A stretch of 64,000 bases of DNA from Methanococcus voltae PS (GTDB taxonomy: Archaea; AGJL01; Methanococci; Methanococcales; Methanococcaceae): positions 434,001 through 498,000 of the forward strand of contig NZ_JANUCQ010000002.1 in the NCBI RefSeq assembly GCF_024807035.1, given 5' to 3'. Position numbers and translations under genes: made by a program. Positions 8,601 through 17,431 of the stretch are shown here, piece after piece (the first letter of the stretch is position 1; every line of letters starts with the position of its first letter). The notes below the pieces were generated by a model. That model saw only the letters and a list, made by a program, of their open reading frames with translations, was not told the origin of the DNA and did not search any database.

Positions 8601-9680
8601 ATGAAAAGTTCTGAAAATTATAAAATCGATTACCCTATTGATGTTAAGGAATTGAAAAAATACTGCAATCCATCTTATGTCGTAATAAGGGATGATAAAT
8701 TAATTGTCTCAAATAAGAGATATGCAAAATTATCCAAAGAAAAAATGAAAAATATTGAAAAAGATTTTGGAATACCTGTTGTTTACTCACGAGTTTATGA
8801 GGAGATTTCTGAAAAAATGGGTAGGTTTGTAGCAAAATACAACATTATAAACCCTCGAAATAACATTGTCGTTGGTTTAAGTGGTGGAAAAGATAGTCTT
8901 GCATTATTGCATCTTTTGGAACCATATAGACGTAAGTTTGGTATATCCATAACTGCCATTACTGCCGATTTAAACATTGATGGTAAAAGACCTTGGGGCA
9001 ATATTGAAGAAAATACTCATTTAAAAAAGGTACATGAACAGTGTGAACACTTGCGAATACCTCATAAAATAATTAGTCATTGTGGTAACGTTGTGGAAAT
9101 GTCAAGATATTTAACAGAAAATGCAAAGGTAAAAGGTATAGAATACTCACCTTGCTTCTCTTGTTCACTTACTAGAAGACATATAATTACGAATTACATC
9201 CATGATAATTGTGAAACTTTTGAAACAAACGGAACCGATGAAAATAAAAAAAATAACTCTAAGAATTATAATAACCATAAAAATTATAAGATAGCTTTTG
9301 GTCATACTCTTGAAGATAATTCCGATACAATACTTGCGAATATGTTTAAAGGAGATAAGATAAAATCTTTAGCACCTATTAAAGAATTTACCCCTATGAA
9401 TGTGCCTTTTGACGAATTTGGTTTCAATTTGGACTTAAAACCTTGCACGATTATAAGACCGATATTAGCAATTAAAGAAGAGAAAATAGTTAAGGCACTT
9501 GAAGAATGTGACATTTGGTACTATAAAGATAAAGACGAATGTCCATACAGTAGGGCAAACGGTGACGGAATTAGGAAAAGAGCTCACTTTGTATTAAAAG
9601 ACCTTGAAAAAAATATTCCAAATGTTCGGGAAATGGTTATATCATCTACTTTAAAGACTATTGGTGATGATTTCGAATAA
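8601..9680 (+). CDS. TtuA/TtcA-like PP-loop tRNA thiolation protein
   Basis: A 359-residue protein with the PP-loop VVGLSGGKDSLALLHLL around residues 91-106. Three cysteines sit as in [4Fe-4S]-dependent tRNA thiolases: Cys185 and Cys188 in SPCFSCSLTRRH and Cys314 in DECPYSRA. The TtuA/TtcA/Ncs6 family adds sulfur to tRNA bases (2-thiouridine or 2-thiocytidine). The N-terminal roughly 80 residues lack the paired zinc ribbons of classical TtuA, so the exact target base is uncertain. An Asn/Lys-rich insert (TDENKKNNSKNYNNHKNYK) lies between the CxxC and AFGHTLEDN. ATG follows GGTGA. It is the third PP-loop sulfur-type enzyme within 6 kb. A guide RNA candidate begins on the opposite strand 31 bp after its stop. 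Confidence 0.75.
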   Translation: MKSSENYKIDYPIDVKELKKYCNPSYVVIRDDKLIVSNKRYAKLSKEKMKNIEKDFGIPVVYSRVYEEISEKMGRFVAKYNIINPRNNIVVGLSGGKDSLALLHLLEPYRRKFGISITAITADLNIDGKRPWGNIEENTHLKKVHEQCEHLRIPHKIISHCGNVVEMSRYLTENAKVKGIEYSPCFSCSLTRRHIITNYIHDNCETFETNGTDENKKNNSKNYNNHKNYKIAFGHTLEDNSDTILANMFKGDKIKSLAPIKEFTPMNVPFDEFGFNLDLKPCTIIRPILAIKEEKIVKALEECDIWYYKDKDECPYSRANGDGIRKRAHFVLKDLEKNIPNVREMVISSTLKTIGDDFE

Positions 9681-9962: not shown

Positions 9963-11603
9963 ATGAAATTTTTAATACTCGATGGATATACAGACGAACC
10001 TGCAGGGCTTGGAGTTCCACCATACCTGGGCACTTACCCGAGATATGTTGCAGGAGCATTGTATAAATATAAACAAGATGTTAGTTACACGACTATCGAT
10101 AAACTTAGGGAAGATTTAACAGAATATAATGGTAAAGGAATAGATTATTTAAACAGATACGATGCAATAATCGCTATTTGTGGATTCCATACGCCTGGAA
10201 AATACATAAACGCAAATCCTGCAACTCTTAGAGAGTTTGTTTCTATTATGCATAACTTTAAGGGTTATAAGATGCTTGGAGGCCCTGTGGCCACCAAATT
10301 TGGGTCTTCGATGGAAGGGGGCAAAATTCACAACGATGATAATTTAAAATATTTCTTTGATTTTGTAGTTGAAGGAGATATTGAAATTGTATTAAACGAT
10401 ATAATTTCTGAATTTGTAGAAAATAATTTAATCGGTGCGAATAACAAAAAGAATGTTATTTCAAAAATTAATTCAAAGGTTAATTCTTTGAAAACACGTG
10501 AATATGATGAAATTAGAGAATTTGCAATATTGGGGGCAAATATTGTAAAAATGCACCCCAATTATCCAAATATTATATTAGAACTTGAAACATACCGAGG
10601 TTGTTCCCGTGCTTTAAGTGTCGAAGGAAATGAAGGCAATAATTGTGGTTGTAGTTTTTGTACAGAGCCTAAAAGATATGGAAGTCCCAAGTTTAGAGTA
10701 ATTTCCGATATAATTGAAGAAGTAAAAGCACTTGCACAGAATGGCGTTAAATACTATAGGGTAGGTCGTCAACCGTGTATGTTTTCTTATATGAGCGAAG
10801 AATCTGAGAAATATGAAATCCCCAAACCAAATCCTGAAGCACTTGAAAAACTGTTTAAAGGAATATATAGTGTTGCAAATCCTAAGGTATTACATATTGA
10901 TAATGCAAATCCCTCAGTTATTGCACGTCACGAAGTTGAAAGCAGAGCAATTGCTAAAACACTTGTGAGATATTGTACGGGAGGTAATACTGCAGCTTTC
11001 GGGGTTGAAAGCTTTGATAGAAAAGTTATTGAAAAGAATTGCCTACTTACAGAACCTGAAGACGTCTTTAAAGCTGTTCAGATATTAAATGAAGAAGGTG
11101 GAAAAAGAAGCGATAGCGGTCTTCCTTACCTATTACCCGGTATAAATCTATTATTTGGACTTAAAGGAGAGAATAAAAATACCTTTGAAACAAACTATGA
11201 AAATCTTATGGAAATATACGATGCAGGGCATATGTTAAGAAGAATAAATATACGTCAGGTTGTGCCATTCTTTGGAACTAATATTACAGAAAAAGATATT
11301 AAAAAGGCTCAGAAATTCAGGCATAAGTTTTTGACATTTCGTGAAAAGATTAGGAATGAGATAGATAATCCAATATTAAAACGAATGGTTCCTAAAGGAA
11401 CAGTTTTAAAGGATGTATTTGTAGAACTTAAAGAACGGGATAATTTGTATTTTGGTCGGCAATTTGGAAGTTATCCGCTACTTGTTGGTATAGATACATC
11501 GAATAAAGAAGATAGGGATATTATAGAGATAGGAAAATACTACGATATTGAGGTAACAGACTATGGTAAAAGGTCCATTACAGGGAAAATCATTAAAAAA
11601 TAG
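9963..11603 (+). CDS. Archaeal radical SAM protein of unknown substrate
   Basis: About 546 residues. The start MKFLILDGYTDEPAGLGVPP resembles the short N-terminal cobalamin-binding-like domain of this family. The radical SAM core follows with Cys214 in TYRGC, then Cys228, Cys230 and Cys233 in NNCGCSFCTEP. The usual CxxxCxxC is therefore stretched: Cys230 and Cys233 form the CxxC part, and the first ligand is either Cys214 after a 15-residue insertion or Cys228. Further family segments are YYRVGRQPCMFSY and FGVESFD. The last roughly 60 residues look like a TRAM-type RNA-binding beta barrel (DVFVELKERDNLYFG), hinting at RNA modification. I chose the ATG at 9963; an open frame extends upstream to 9921 without a better ribosome site. 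The next gene overlaps its 3' end. Confidence 0.8.
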   Translation: MKFLILDGYTDEPAGLGVPPYLGTYPRYVAGALYKYKQDVSYTTIDKLREDLTEYNGKGIDYLNRYDAIIAICGFHTPGKYINANPATLREFVSIMHNFKGYKMLGGPVATKFGSSMEGGKIHNDDNLKYFFDFVVEGDIEIVLNDIISEFVENNLIGANNKKNVISKINSKVNSLKTREYDEIREFAILGANIVKMHPNYPNIILELETYRGCSRALSVEGNEGNNCGCSFCTEPKRYGSPKFRVISDIIEEVKALAQNGVKYYRVGRQPCMFSYMSEESEKYEIPKPNPEALEKLFKGIYSVANPKVLHIDNANPSVIARHEVESRAIAKTLVRYCTGGNTAAFGVESFDRKVIEKNCLLTEPEDVFKAVQILNEEGGKRSDSGLPYLLPGINLLFGLKGENKNTFETNYENLMEIYDAGHMLRRINIRQVVPFFGTNITEKDIKKAQKFRHKFLTFREKIRNEIDNPILKRMVPKGTVLKDVFVELKERDNLYFGRQFGSYPLLVGIDTSNKEDRDIIEIGKYYDIEVTDYGKRSITGKIIKK

Positions 11604-15638: not shown

Positions 15639-16051
15639 GTCATTCCTTTCTTTTTTTTATTTATTTTTACGTTATTAGTTGATATTTATATTTAATATTA
15701 TATTTTTTAAGGATATTTGCGGTATTTTACGGAATTATGATAGTGTTCTGAAATCTATATTTTAACCATTATTTTTAAAAAAAGCACATTTTATTGTTTT
15801 TCGACGTTAGTATATAAAGCAGACAAAATATAGAAATTGTCAGTTAAAAATTTCCGGACAAAACTACCCAATTAAGTAATTTAAAAATTTGACTATTTAA
15901 GTATATAATTACTTAAATACTTAGATATATAAGTATTTGAATATTTTACTATTTAAGTATTTAAGTAATTATATTTAAACTAAAAAAGGTTAATTATAAA
16001 TTTAATAAAAAATAAAAGGTAATATGATAATTAAAAAGGCAAAGGGAAAAT
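15639..16051. other. Gap between proX and recombinase gene
   Basis: The 413 bp lack a gene. The left part has a T-rich stretch after proX (15647-15668) that can act as an archaeal terminator. The right part contains the TAAGTA/TACTTA repeat array described separately, then an A-rich leader with AAAGGG just before the recombinase ATG. Confidence 0.5.
15892..15974. repeat. Inverted-repeat array, possible recombinase/operator site
   Basis: A perfect 21-bp inverted repeat occupies 15903-15923 and 15954-15974 with 30 bp between the arms. Nested inside and beside it are two smaller dyads with 6-bp spacers. One has arms TATTTAAGTA and TACTTAAATA around TATAAT (15894-15919). The other has arms AAATACTTA and TAAGTATTT around GATATA (15915-15938). 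ACTATTTAAGTAT occurs directly repeated at 15892-15904 and 15948-15960. A 6-bp spacer between roughly 10-bp arms is the geometry of Xer/dif-type sites, and the next gene is a tyrosine recombinase. The same layout could equally be a repressor operator. Confidence 0.85.
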
Positions 16052-16687
16052 ATGCGGACGGATATAATTAATAGCCATAATGTTCAGAAAAATGGTTCTA
16101 AATATAACTCTAAAGGTAATCAAAACAAACAATACAAGGTTAAAAAACACTATTGTAAAGAATGGTTAACTAAGGAAGAACTTAAGGTTTTCATAGATGC
16201 TATAGACTATAGCGAACATCGATTATTCTTTAAAATGCTATATGGAATGGCCTTACGGGTTTCAGAATTGTTAAAAGTAAAAGTACAAGATTTACAACTT
16301 AAAGAAGGAGTTTGTAAATTATGGGATACAAAAACGGATTATTTTCAAGTTTGTTTAATACCCGACTGGCTTATTAATGACATTAAAGAGTATATAGTAC
16401 TTAAAGGCCTAAGTGGCGAAGATGAATTATTTAGATTTAATAATCGCAAATACGTATGGGAACTTGCCAAAAAGTATTCAAAAAAAGCGGACTTGGACAA
16501 GGATATATCTACCCATACATTTAGGAGAAGTAGGGCACTACACCTCTTAAATGATGGCGTACCACTTGAAAAGGTTAGTAAATATTTACGTCATAAGTCA
16601 ATTGGGACTACTATGAGTTATATTAGAATAACAGTTGTAGATTTAAAACAGGAATTGGATAAAATTGATGATTGGTACGACTTATAA
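16052..16687 (+). CDS. Tyrosine recombinase, short Xer-like catalytic domain
   Basis: A 211-residue protein with the complete active-site set: Arg69 (ALRVSELL), Lys94 (DTKTDYF), His155-x-x-Arg158 (HTFRRSR), His181 (LRHKS) and nucleophile Tyr190 (MSYIRI). Enzymes of this class cut and rejoin DNA through a 3'-phosphotyrosyl link. The catalytic domain begins almost at once after a Lys/Asn-rich 35-residue head, so the usual N-terminal core-binding domain (about 100 residues) is missing. An M. jannaschii protein (MJ0367) is annotated similarly, as far as I recall. The ATG follows AAAGGG. It sits 78 bp after the inverted-repeat array and 63 bp before the HTH gene. It could be the chromosomal dimer-resolution enzyme, an element integrase or a regulator-linked invertase. 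Confidence 0.85.
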   Translation: MRTDIINSHNVQKNGSKYNSKGNQNKQYKVKKHYCKEWLTKEELKVFIDAIDYSEHRLFFKMLYGMALRVSELLKVKVQDLQLKEGVCKLWDTKTDYFQVCLIPDWLINDIKEYIVLKGLSGEDELFRFNNRKYVWELAKKYSKKADLDKDISTHTFRRSRALHLLNDGVPLEKVSKYLRHKSIGTTMSYIRITVVDLKQELDKIDDWYDL

Positions 16688-16750
16688 AATATTATAAAAT
16701 AATTTATAAATTATAAATAATTTGAAGATTTAAAGTAAAATAAAGATATT

Positions 16751-17431
16751 ATGAACGAATTGAACGAATTAAAAAATCCGGACAAAATAGATGAAAATAT
16801 TTCTAAAAATGATGAAAATATTGATAGTAGTAAGGAAGATTTAGGCGATTTAAACCAGGTAACACAGTTGGATGAGTTAGATAAGCTAAAAAATAATCTA
16901 AATTCCAAATATAAAGTATATAAAACATCTAAATATCTTACAAAGAAAAAAGTTGAAGAGATTATTCAAAAGGACTACGATGAAATAATTATGCCTCAAT
17001 CGATATATAATCTAATGGATGAAAAAAATAAAAGTTCTATGGAAAAGCTAAGATTATGTGGAGTTATCATAAAGACTACCGATAACGTTGGTAGACCTAA
17101 AAAAATTACGAAATATGATAAATACAGGATAAAAGAGCTTCTCGTAGATGGAAAGAGTGTTCGTAAAACTGCGGAAATAATGAATATGAAAAAAACCACA
17201 GTTTGGGAAAACATTAAAGATAGCATGGATGAAATAAAAATTGAAAAATTTAGAAAACTGATTTATGAGTATAAAGAATTACTTATTTTACAAGACCGTT
17301 ATGGTTCTTATATAGAAAGTTTATTCTTAGAGCTTGATGTTTACATCAATAATAAGGATATGGAAAATGCTCTTGAAATATTGAATAAAATAATAATCTA
17401 TGCAAAATCTGAAGATAATTCCGTTAAATAA
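16751..17431 (+). CDS. Helix-turn-helix protein paired with the recombinase
   Basis: A 226-residue protein I cannot name. Residues 1-50 are an acidic/Asn/Lys-rich disordered head with no tryptophan and few aromatics. Residues about 112-155 (GRPKKITKYDKYRIKEL through VRKTAEIMNMKKTTVWENI) form a helix-turn-helix like the resolvase/invertase Hin type. A final helical stretch (LLILQDRYGSYIESLFLELDVYI) could be a dimerisation helix. It follows the recombinase on the same strand by 63 bp. A sensible hypothesis is that it supplies the site recognition the short recombinase lacks, or represses the pair; both are inferences. There is no clear ribosome site before its ATG. Confidence 0.65.
   Translation: MNELNELKNPDKIDENISKNDENIDSSKEDLGDLNQVTQLDELDKLKNNLNSKYKVYKTSKYLTKKKVEEIIQKDYDEIIMPQSIYNLMDEKNKSSMEKLRLCGVIIKTTDNVGRPKKITKYDKYRIKELLVDGKSVRKTAEIMNMKKTTVWENIKDSMDEIKIEKFRKLIYEYKELLILQDRYGSYIESLFLELDVYINNKDMENALEILNKIIIYAKSEDNSVK

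Follow-up and report, generated by a model that had tools for sequence, protein, structure and literature searches.

The locus analysed here raises the question which DNA site is served by a small tyrosine recombinase (Rec) and the HTH protein encoded next to it, and to what end. For the Methanococcales, including the genetic model Methanococcus maripaludis, no description of how chromosome and plasmid dimers are resolved was found in the accessible literature. The window, i.e., the whole 64-kb stretch of DNA analysed, lies in a Methanococcus-like genome (G000). A first-pass annotation had proposed that enzyme, DNA-binding partner and a perfect inverted repeat directly upstream of rec form one module for site-specific recombination or switching. 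The genes are indeed part of a conserved module, and the role of target passes from the repeat to a candidate core located further upstream (Table 1).

Table 1. Features of the rec locus, in positions of the window.
Feature	Position	Strand	Remarks
Conserved block upstream of the core, including the left core half	15758..15834	+	Counterpart of the 77-bp direct repeat of G006
TATA-like GTATATAAAG immediately upstream of the core, possibly the promoter of rec	15810..15819	+	Identical in G000, G002 and G006
Candidate core CAGACAAAA-TATAGA-AATTGTCAG	15820..15843		6-bp spacer TATAGA at 15829-15834
Accessory box GTCAGTTAAAAATTTCCGGACAAAA that overlaps the right arm; the HTH protein may bind here	15839..15863	+	Core plus box once per rec genome
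8-bp periodic AT array	15895..15974		Contains both dyads and the 21-bp inverted repeat; not the conserved site
rec	16052..16687	+	211-aa tyrosine recombinase, catalytic domain only
HTH partner gene	16751..17431	+	226 aa, resolvase-type HTH, GRPKK motif, helical C-terminus

A Minimal Recombinase and Its HTH Partner

Rec contains a Phage_integrase domain (PF00589, 1.5e-23), within which R69, K94, H155, R158, H181 and Y190, i.e., the R-K-HxxR-H-Y residues of the tyrosine recombinase superfamily, are invariant in all eight genomes that carry rec. Some of its orthologues are shorter than the protein of the window (182 aa). The predicted model is of moderate quality (pLDDT 68) with a well predicted catalytic core, and the top match in a fold search was XerA (5hxy). 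Protein and profile scans of genome and viral contig collections, from which the nearest genomes are possibly absent, returned no close relatives of rec, and searches of phage and plasmid proteins returned distant integrases only. In the comparison of G000, G002 and G006, the dN/dS values of rec range from 0.03 to 0.06, and judged by these values the gene is under strong purifying selection. The HTH partner, with dN/dS values of 0.08–0.24, is encoded downstream of rec in the same direction, as the first-pass annotation had stated, and the two genes adjoin in all eight rec genomes. For the HTH protein no fold match below an E-value of 0.001 was obtained with its model and no match was found in the phage collection.

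A Conserved Core Flanked by a Box on One Side

The alignment of G000, G002 and G006 revealed a conserved block of about 100 bp that ends near position 15863 and is followed by the AT array. As dS of rec reaches 1.3–1.6 in the comparison with G006, the block can be regarded as a footprint. It contains the candidate core, which lies upstream of the interval reported by the first-pass annotation. The pattern C-N-R-ACA-www-N6-www-TGT-Y-N-G is present just upstream of rec in eight of eight rec genomes and was the sole match in each context in which uniqueness was judged (20 kb each, 64 kb for the window). It is rare throughout the order, with an estimated 0.4 or so chance matches per genome, and occurs once in G000; a looser pattern also matches elsewhere in G001, G003 and G006. 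The sites consist of a 6-nt spacer and symmetric 9-nt arms, of which six to eight of nine positions are paired in seven of the eight genomes as scored, the site of G004 being clear by the pattern. G000, G002, G006 and G029 have a G-C pair at the third position of the arms, G001, G003, G004 and G008 an A-T pair, and such a paired swap is expected for a dyad that is read by a protein dimer. The conserved box GTYRGNTWAAAATWTYCGGA directly abuts the core across the rec genomes and ends with CCGGACAAAA at 15863 in the window. Core plus box occur once in each of the eight rec genomes and are absent from G005, which does not carry rec. The core at 15820-15843 is well supported by sequence evidence as the likely recombination site.

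Further dyads of the type CYAACAwTTT-N-ATTTTGTYWG were observed at the borders of variable islands in G001, G003 and G005 (L161:5340, L162:5705, L164:6390, L165:5604, L166:7591). These islands hold restriction-modification genes and integrase fragments, and two of the G001 dyads have a 40-bp left flank in common. A different recombinase may use these dyads for attachment, or Rec may act on them as secondary targets.

The AT Array Upstream of rec

The inverted repeat that had been named as the target is present as described. Its arms (15903-15923 and 15954-15974) are perfect over 21 bp and are separated by a loop of 30 nt, and no other inverted repeat of the 64-kb window is perfect over 13 bp or more at loops of up to 60. 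In 3000 Markov simulations of the intergenic region (190 bp), arms of at least 21 bp never occurred. When the arms are extended (15903-15937/15940-15974), 86% of the positions are complementary. The two dyads with a spacing of exactly 6 bp were likewise confirmed, at 15896-15917 (TTTAAGTA-TATAAT-TACTTAAA) and at 15916-15937 (AATACTTA-GATATA-TAAGTATT). All of these belong to an array of 11.4% G+C with a period-8 identity of 0.66, which was equalled in none of 2000 shuffles, and with partial matches elsewhere in the genome. Since a unit and its reverse complement placed one unit apart give this spacing, the distance of 6 bp is a geometric by-product, and the perfect repeat and the dyads arise from an array with a period of 8 bp that changes fast. 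In G002 and G006 the array is as periodic as in the window and has been rebuilt, with insertions of some 30 bases. G008 and G029 keep both genes and lack the array altogether; here the distance from the conserved sequence to the start codon is about 10–25 bp, too short to accommodate it. Absence from relatives that retain both genes is one of the two outcomes that the first-pass annotation had named as refuting its reading. As it is not conserved, the array was rejected as target site.

The periodicity as such is kept in three related species while the letters turn over (window 15895-15974; L031, ~9510-9640; L032, ~10226-10440). RNA folding of the array is strong in the window (z -4.7) and weaker in G002 (z -2.2), and the array would make a strong RNA hairpin in the species of the window if transcribed.

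An Integrase-Less Element at the Core of a Close Relative

In the close relative G006 a virus-like element of 7,713 bp is located between opuAC and rec. It codes for a rolling-circle Rep, a GIY-YIG protein, small hydrophobic proteins and an ATPase with weak packaging/Zot-type similarity, and no integrase domain was detected in any of the ORFs that were scanned. The element is bounded by identical 77-bp repeats, to which the block of the window is 89% identical over 83 bp, and the window, having the same genes, represents the corresponding empty site. The repeat runs into AATTGTCAG on the rec side and into TAAAATGG on the other side, and as these continuations differ, the identity ends at the border of the 6-bp spacer and the right arm of the core. 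The rec and HTH genes of G006 lie outside the repeats, an arrangement that differs from an integrase gene flanked by its att sites. The copied 77-bp block includes the TATA-like sequence and is intact before rec, which would preserve rec expression. One such insertion was seen in all.

A second rolling-circle Rep gene of G006 adjoins a gene for a 346-aa type II-like integrase (L172, G006:C12:17711-19701), possibly another provirus of the same host.

A Second Recombinase Family Next to Homologues of the HTH Protein

Homologues of the HTH protein that are not accompanied by rec mostly adjoin recB, which encodes another catalytic-domain-only tyrosine recombinase of 183–230 aa in Methanococcales. 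In a phylogenetic tree rec and recB form separate, fully supported clades, and rec is placed, with moderate support (84/87), beside XerA-type proteins and not beside type II integrases. At many recB loci a dyad is followed by the same kind of box: TTGGACTTT-TGTGCA-AAAGTCTAA and then TTGGTTAAAAATTTTCGGAC in M. jannaschii, with dyads TTAGACTTT-CAAACC-AAAGTCCAA in M. fervens, GTTAACTTT-TAAACA-AAAGTTAAC in G011, CTGAACTTT-CCTGAA-AAAGTTCAG at a second locus of G029 and TTAAACTTA-N6-TAAGTTTTA in G017 and G019. Other recB sites fit less well, i.e., that of G009 is weak, those of G010, G013 and G016 have spacers of 5 or 7 bp, and the sites of the plasmid pMEFER01 and of the G011 plasmid are imperfect. 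The arms of the recB sites vary by clade and the box is constant; when 636 kb were scanned with a regular expression for the box, the majority of matches fell at recombinase/HTH modules. Because the box stays while the arms differ, and because of this location, the HTH protein is the putative ligand of the box. One or the other recombinase/HTH pair is present in about 16 of 27 good genomes and missing from several complete genomes of Methanococcales, thus the pair is not the universal chromosome resolvase.

The M. jannaschii recB/HTH pair has, at a distance of about 4 kb, a gene for an AAA ATPase that includes an HTH domain (ATPase_2, HTH_5; L119:12228-13457), which has been discussed as Orc-like and near a predicted origin.

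Sites and Gene Pairs on Plasmids

A genome-wide search for the box identified it, with a dyad before it, on three plasmids that carry no recombinase gene, i.e., the 58-kb plasmid pDSM2661_1 of M. jannaschii, a 12-kb plasmid of Methanocaldococcus sp. FS406-22 and a 5.1-kb plasmid of M. lauensis. In the M. lauensis genome no recombinase/HTH pair was detected although its plasmid carries the site. Tyrosine recombinases require matching spacers. The site of pDSM2661_1 (gtggacttt-AGCCCC-aaagtccaa) nearly matches that of the M. jannaschii chromosome (ttggacttt-TGTGCA-aaagtctaa) in its arms whereas the spacers differ, which would allow plasmid dimers to be resolved by the chromosomal enzyme and would discourage integration. 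A site very like that of the M. lauensis plasmid, with a spacer about 3 bp shorter, was observed on a 12.7-kb contig of G022 (L191:222, G022:C14).

The pair itself also occurs on plasmids of the pT26-2 family in Methanococcales, namely pMEFER01, where it is annotated as recombinase and HTH protein, and the members of FS406-22 and M. igneus. The accessible text of Badel et al. (2019, PMC6972569) places the integrated plasmids at 1,092,561-1,123,012 in FS406-22 and at 500,181-524,602 in M. igneus, ranges that enclose the rec/HTH pair of G029 (1,110,758-1,111,826) and the recB/HTH pair of G011 (512,668-513,734), respectively. In the same text the integrase of these plasmids is a longer type II enzyme acting at tRNA-Ser/Leu and distinct from the recombinase of the pair, so the plasmids carry the pair besides their own tRNA-targeting integrase, and no mention of a resolution function for the pair was found there. 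The rec module of G029 follows a sequence like the recB site of pMEFER01 (GGTAATCA...ATAAGGTTACTTTGAGTTAG; L034:10042-10180), which suggests that one recombinase cassette may have replaced another. A direct repeat bounding rec was sought in G029 and not found.

Comparison With Known Systems

The rec module shares with archaeal XerA/dif an XerA-related recombinase, a dyad core with 6-bp spacing and a single core-plus-box (Cortez et al., 2010, PMC2958812; reviewed in PMC8371274). In Sulfolobales dif lies near xerA and is flanked on one side by a sequence of 13 bp (Cortez et al., 2010, PMC2958812). In contrast to XerA/dif, Rec has no N-terminal domain, an HTH gene is dedicated to it, an extra box is present and the arms are unlike published dif. 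Xer/dif systems have two 11-nt inverted arms around a 6-nt spacer, and the rec core combines the 6-nt spacer with symmetric 9-nt arms. Against the XerA profile NF040815 Rec scores 110 bits, below the curated cut-off of 220 bits, and its match is limited to positions 83-262 rather than extending over the two domains of XerA. No XerA above this cut-off was found in 36 genomes; XerA-like proteins of about 300 aa below it exist in some Methanococcus genomes, including G000. As is typical for Xer/dif, where each circular replicon has one site, core plus box are present once per rec genome. Xer/dif sites lie in the region of the replication terminus; in G004, neither an origin nor a terminus was indicated by GC, AT or purine skew calculated over 80 stretches.

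The element of G006 resembles integrative mobile elements exploiting Xer (IMEX), such as the CTX phage, in that it has no detectable integrase and occupies the site of a host recombinase. It differs from them in that the host enzyme would be the minimal Rec with its HTH protein instead of XerC/D at dif, in that it copies 77 bp of host upstream sequence and in that it is archaeal. The short integrases of STSV/SMV and bicaudaviruses are 32–36% identical to recB proteins over nearly the full length; however, rec of the window falls outside the recB clade and its HTH partner has no counterpart in the phage collection.

Probable Multimer Resolution and Its Alternatives

We favor, with a probability of roughly 60%, a Xer/dif-like multimer-resolution system that is made up of a minimal recombinase, an accessory HTH protein and a box on one side of the core and that is exploited by an integrase-less element. 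Rec, reduced to the catalytic domain, would act on a pair of cores, with the exchange taking place at their 6-bp spacers, and the HTH protein would bind the box on one side of the core, providing the grip on DNA, control or directionality that other Xer enzymes obtain from their N-terminal domain and partners. As each replicon has a single site, Rec would normally act on the two copies in a dimer and convert it into monomers, be it of the chromosome, of plasmids or of both. The integrase-less element would integrate through the same core, in G006 carrying the 77-bp upstream block along. The module, the site, the element junctions and the purifying selection can be read from the sequences themselves. 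That Rec cuts the core, that the HTH protein binds the box and that multimer resolution is the function under selection are inferences from them.

This reading is supported by the adjacency of Rec and HTH genes in eight of eight genomes with invariant catalytic residues and strong purifying selection, by the core with its two-sided G-C to A-T swaps in the same genomes and by the end of the 77-bp repeat identity at the spacer/right-arm border. It is further supported by the pairing of the HTH family with a second recombinase family, for the most part in the same dyad-plus-box layout, by the dyad plus box on plasmids without recombinase, by the retention of the pair on pT26-2 plasmids despite their own integrase, and by the 36 genomes without XerA above the cut-off while Rec groups with XerA-type proteins. 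The XerA-like proteins of about 300 aa count against it as they could perform chromosome resolution, and so do the absence of the pair from several complete genomes, the M. lauensis site without a detected pair, the single element insertion and the recB sites with imperfect arms or spacers of 5–7 bp.

Several of the same observations would be expected if rec were the integrase of a mobile element, the core its att site and the chromosomal copies stranded remnants of viruses or plasmids: the pair of G029 lies inside an integrated pT26-2 plasmid, an element sits at the core of G006, the distribution of the pair is patchy and recB resembles bicaudaviral and STSV integrases. Yet in G006 both genes lie outside the element and in the window they accompany an empty site, rec is under strong purifying selection, the pT26-2 plasmids already possess another integrase at a tRNA gene, and the neighbors of the pair are common to related genomes (S24e-side genes or a DEAD-box helicase in Methanococcus, hypE/ilv/nadM in genus g2), which makes this explanation unlikely. 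Still less probable is that the conserved upstream sequence is no more than a promoter/operator through which Rec or the HTH protein autoregulates the rec-HTH operon, with recombination taking place elsewhere. The TATA-like sequence directly before the core and the box between the two genes at divergent recB loci agree with such a role, but in M. jannaschii and M. fervens dyad plus box lie downstream of the HTH gene, on plasmids they occur with neither a recombinase nor an HTH gene nearby, and the repeat identity of the G006 element ends exactly at the 6-bp spacer. A switch in which Rec flips or excises 15903-15974 or another segment and thereby controls expression is very improbable. In its favor are the inverted repeat preceding rec, which the first-pass annotation had connected with inversion or excision, and a weak resemblance of Rec to FimB/FimE-type invertases (1.5e-5). 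Such invertases act on two inverted cores around a segment, whereas the core pattern occurs once in G000 and lacks a second copy with which to invert. Moreover, conservation of the repeat is lacking, and 15903-15974 is nearly palindromic so that its inversion would alter little.

Implications for Methanococcales

Beyond the multimer-resolution reading of the rec locus, it can tentatively be proposed that the pairs represent a so far undescribed archaeal resolution system in an order without recognizable XerA, in which a tyrosine recombinase devoid of its N-terminal domain acts together with a dedicated HTH protein on one flank of the site. HTH protein and box would be constant and the recombinase exchangeable, since boxes of one kind are shared by two separate recombinase families, and the system would serve chromosomes, plasmids in trans and an integrase-less virus-like element. 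A catalytic subunit that can be exchanged while accessory protein and box remain constant would, if true, be unusual among tyrosine recombinases. Enzyme, partner and a site of about 45 bp provide testable candidates for dimer resolution in Methanococcales. Moreover, they suggest a possible role for the recombinase/HTH gene pair of pT26-2-family plasmids and may offer an archaeal parallel to the viruses that use the Xer sites of their hosts.
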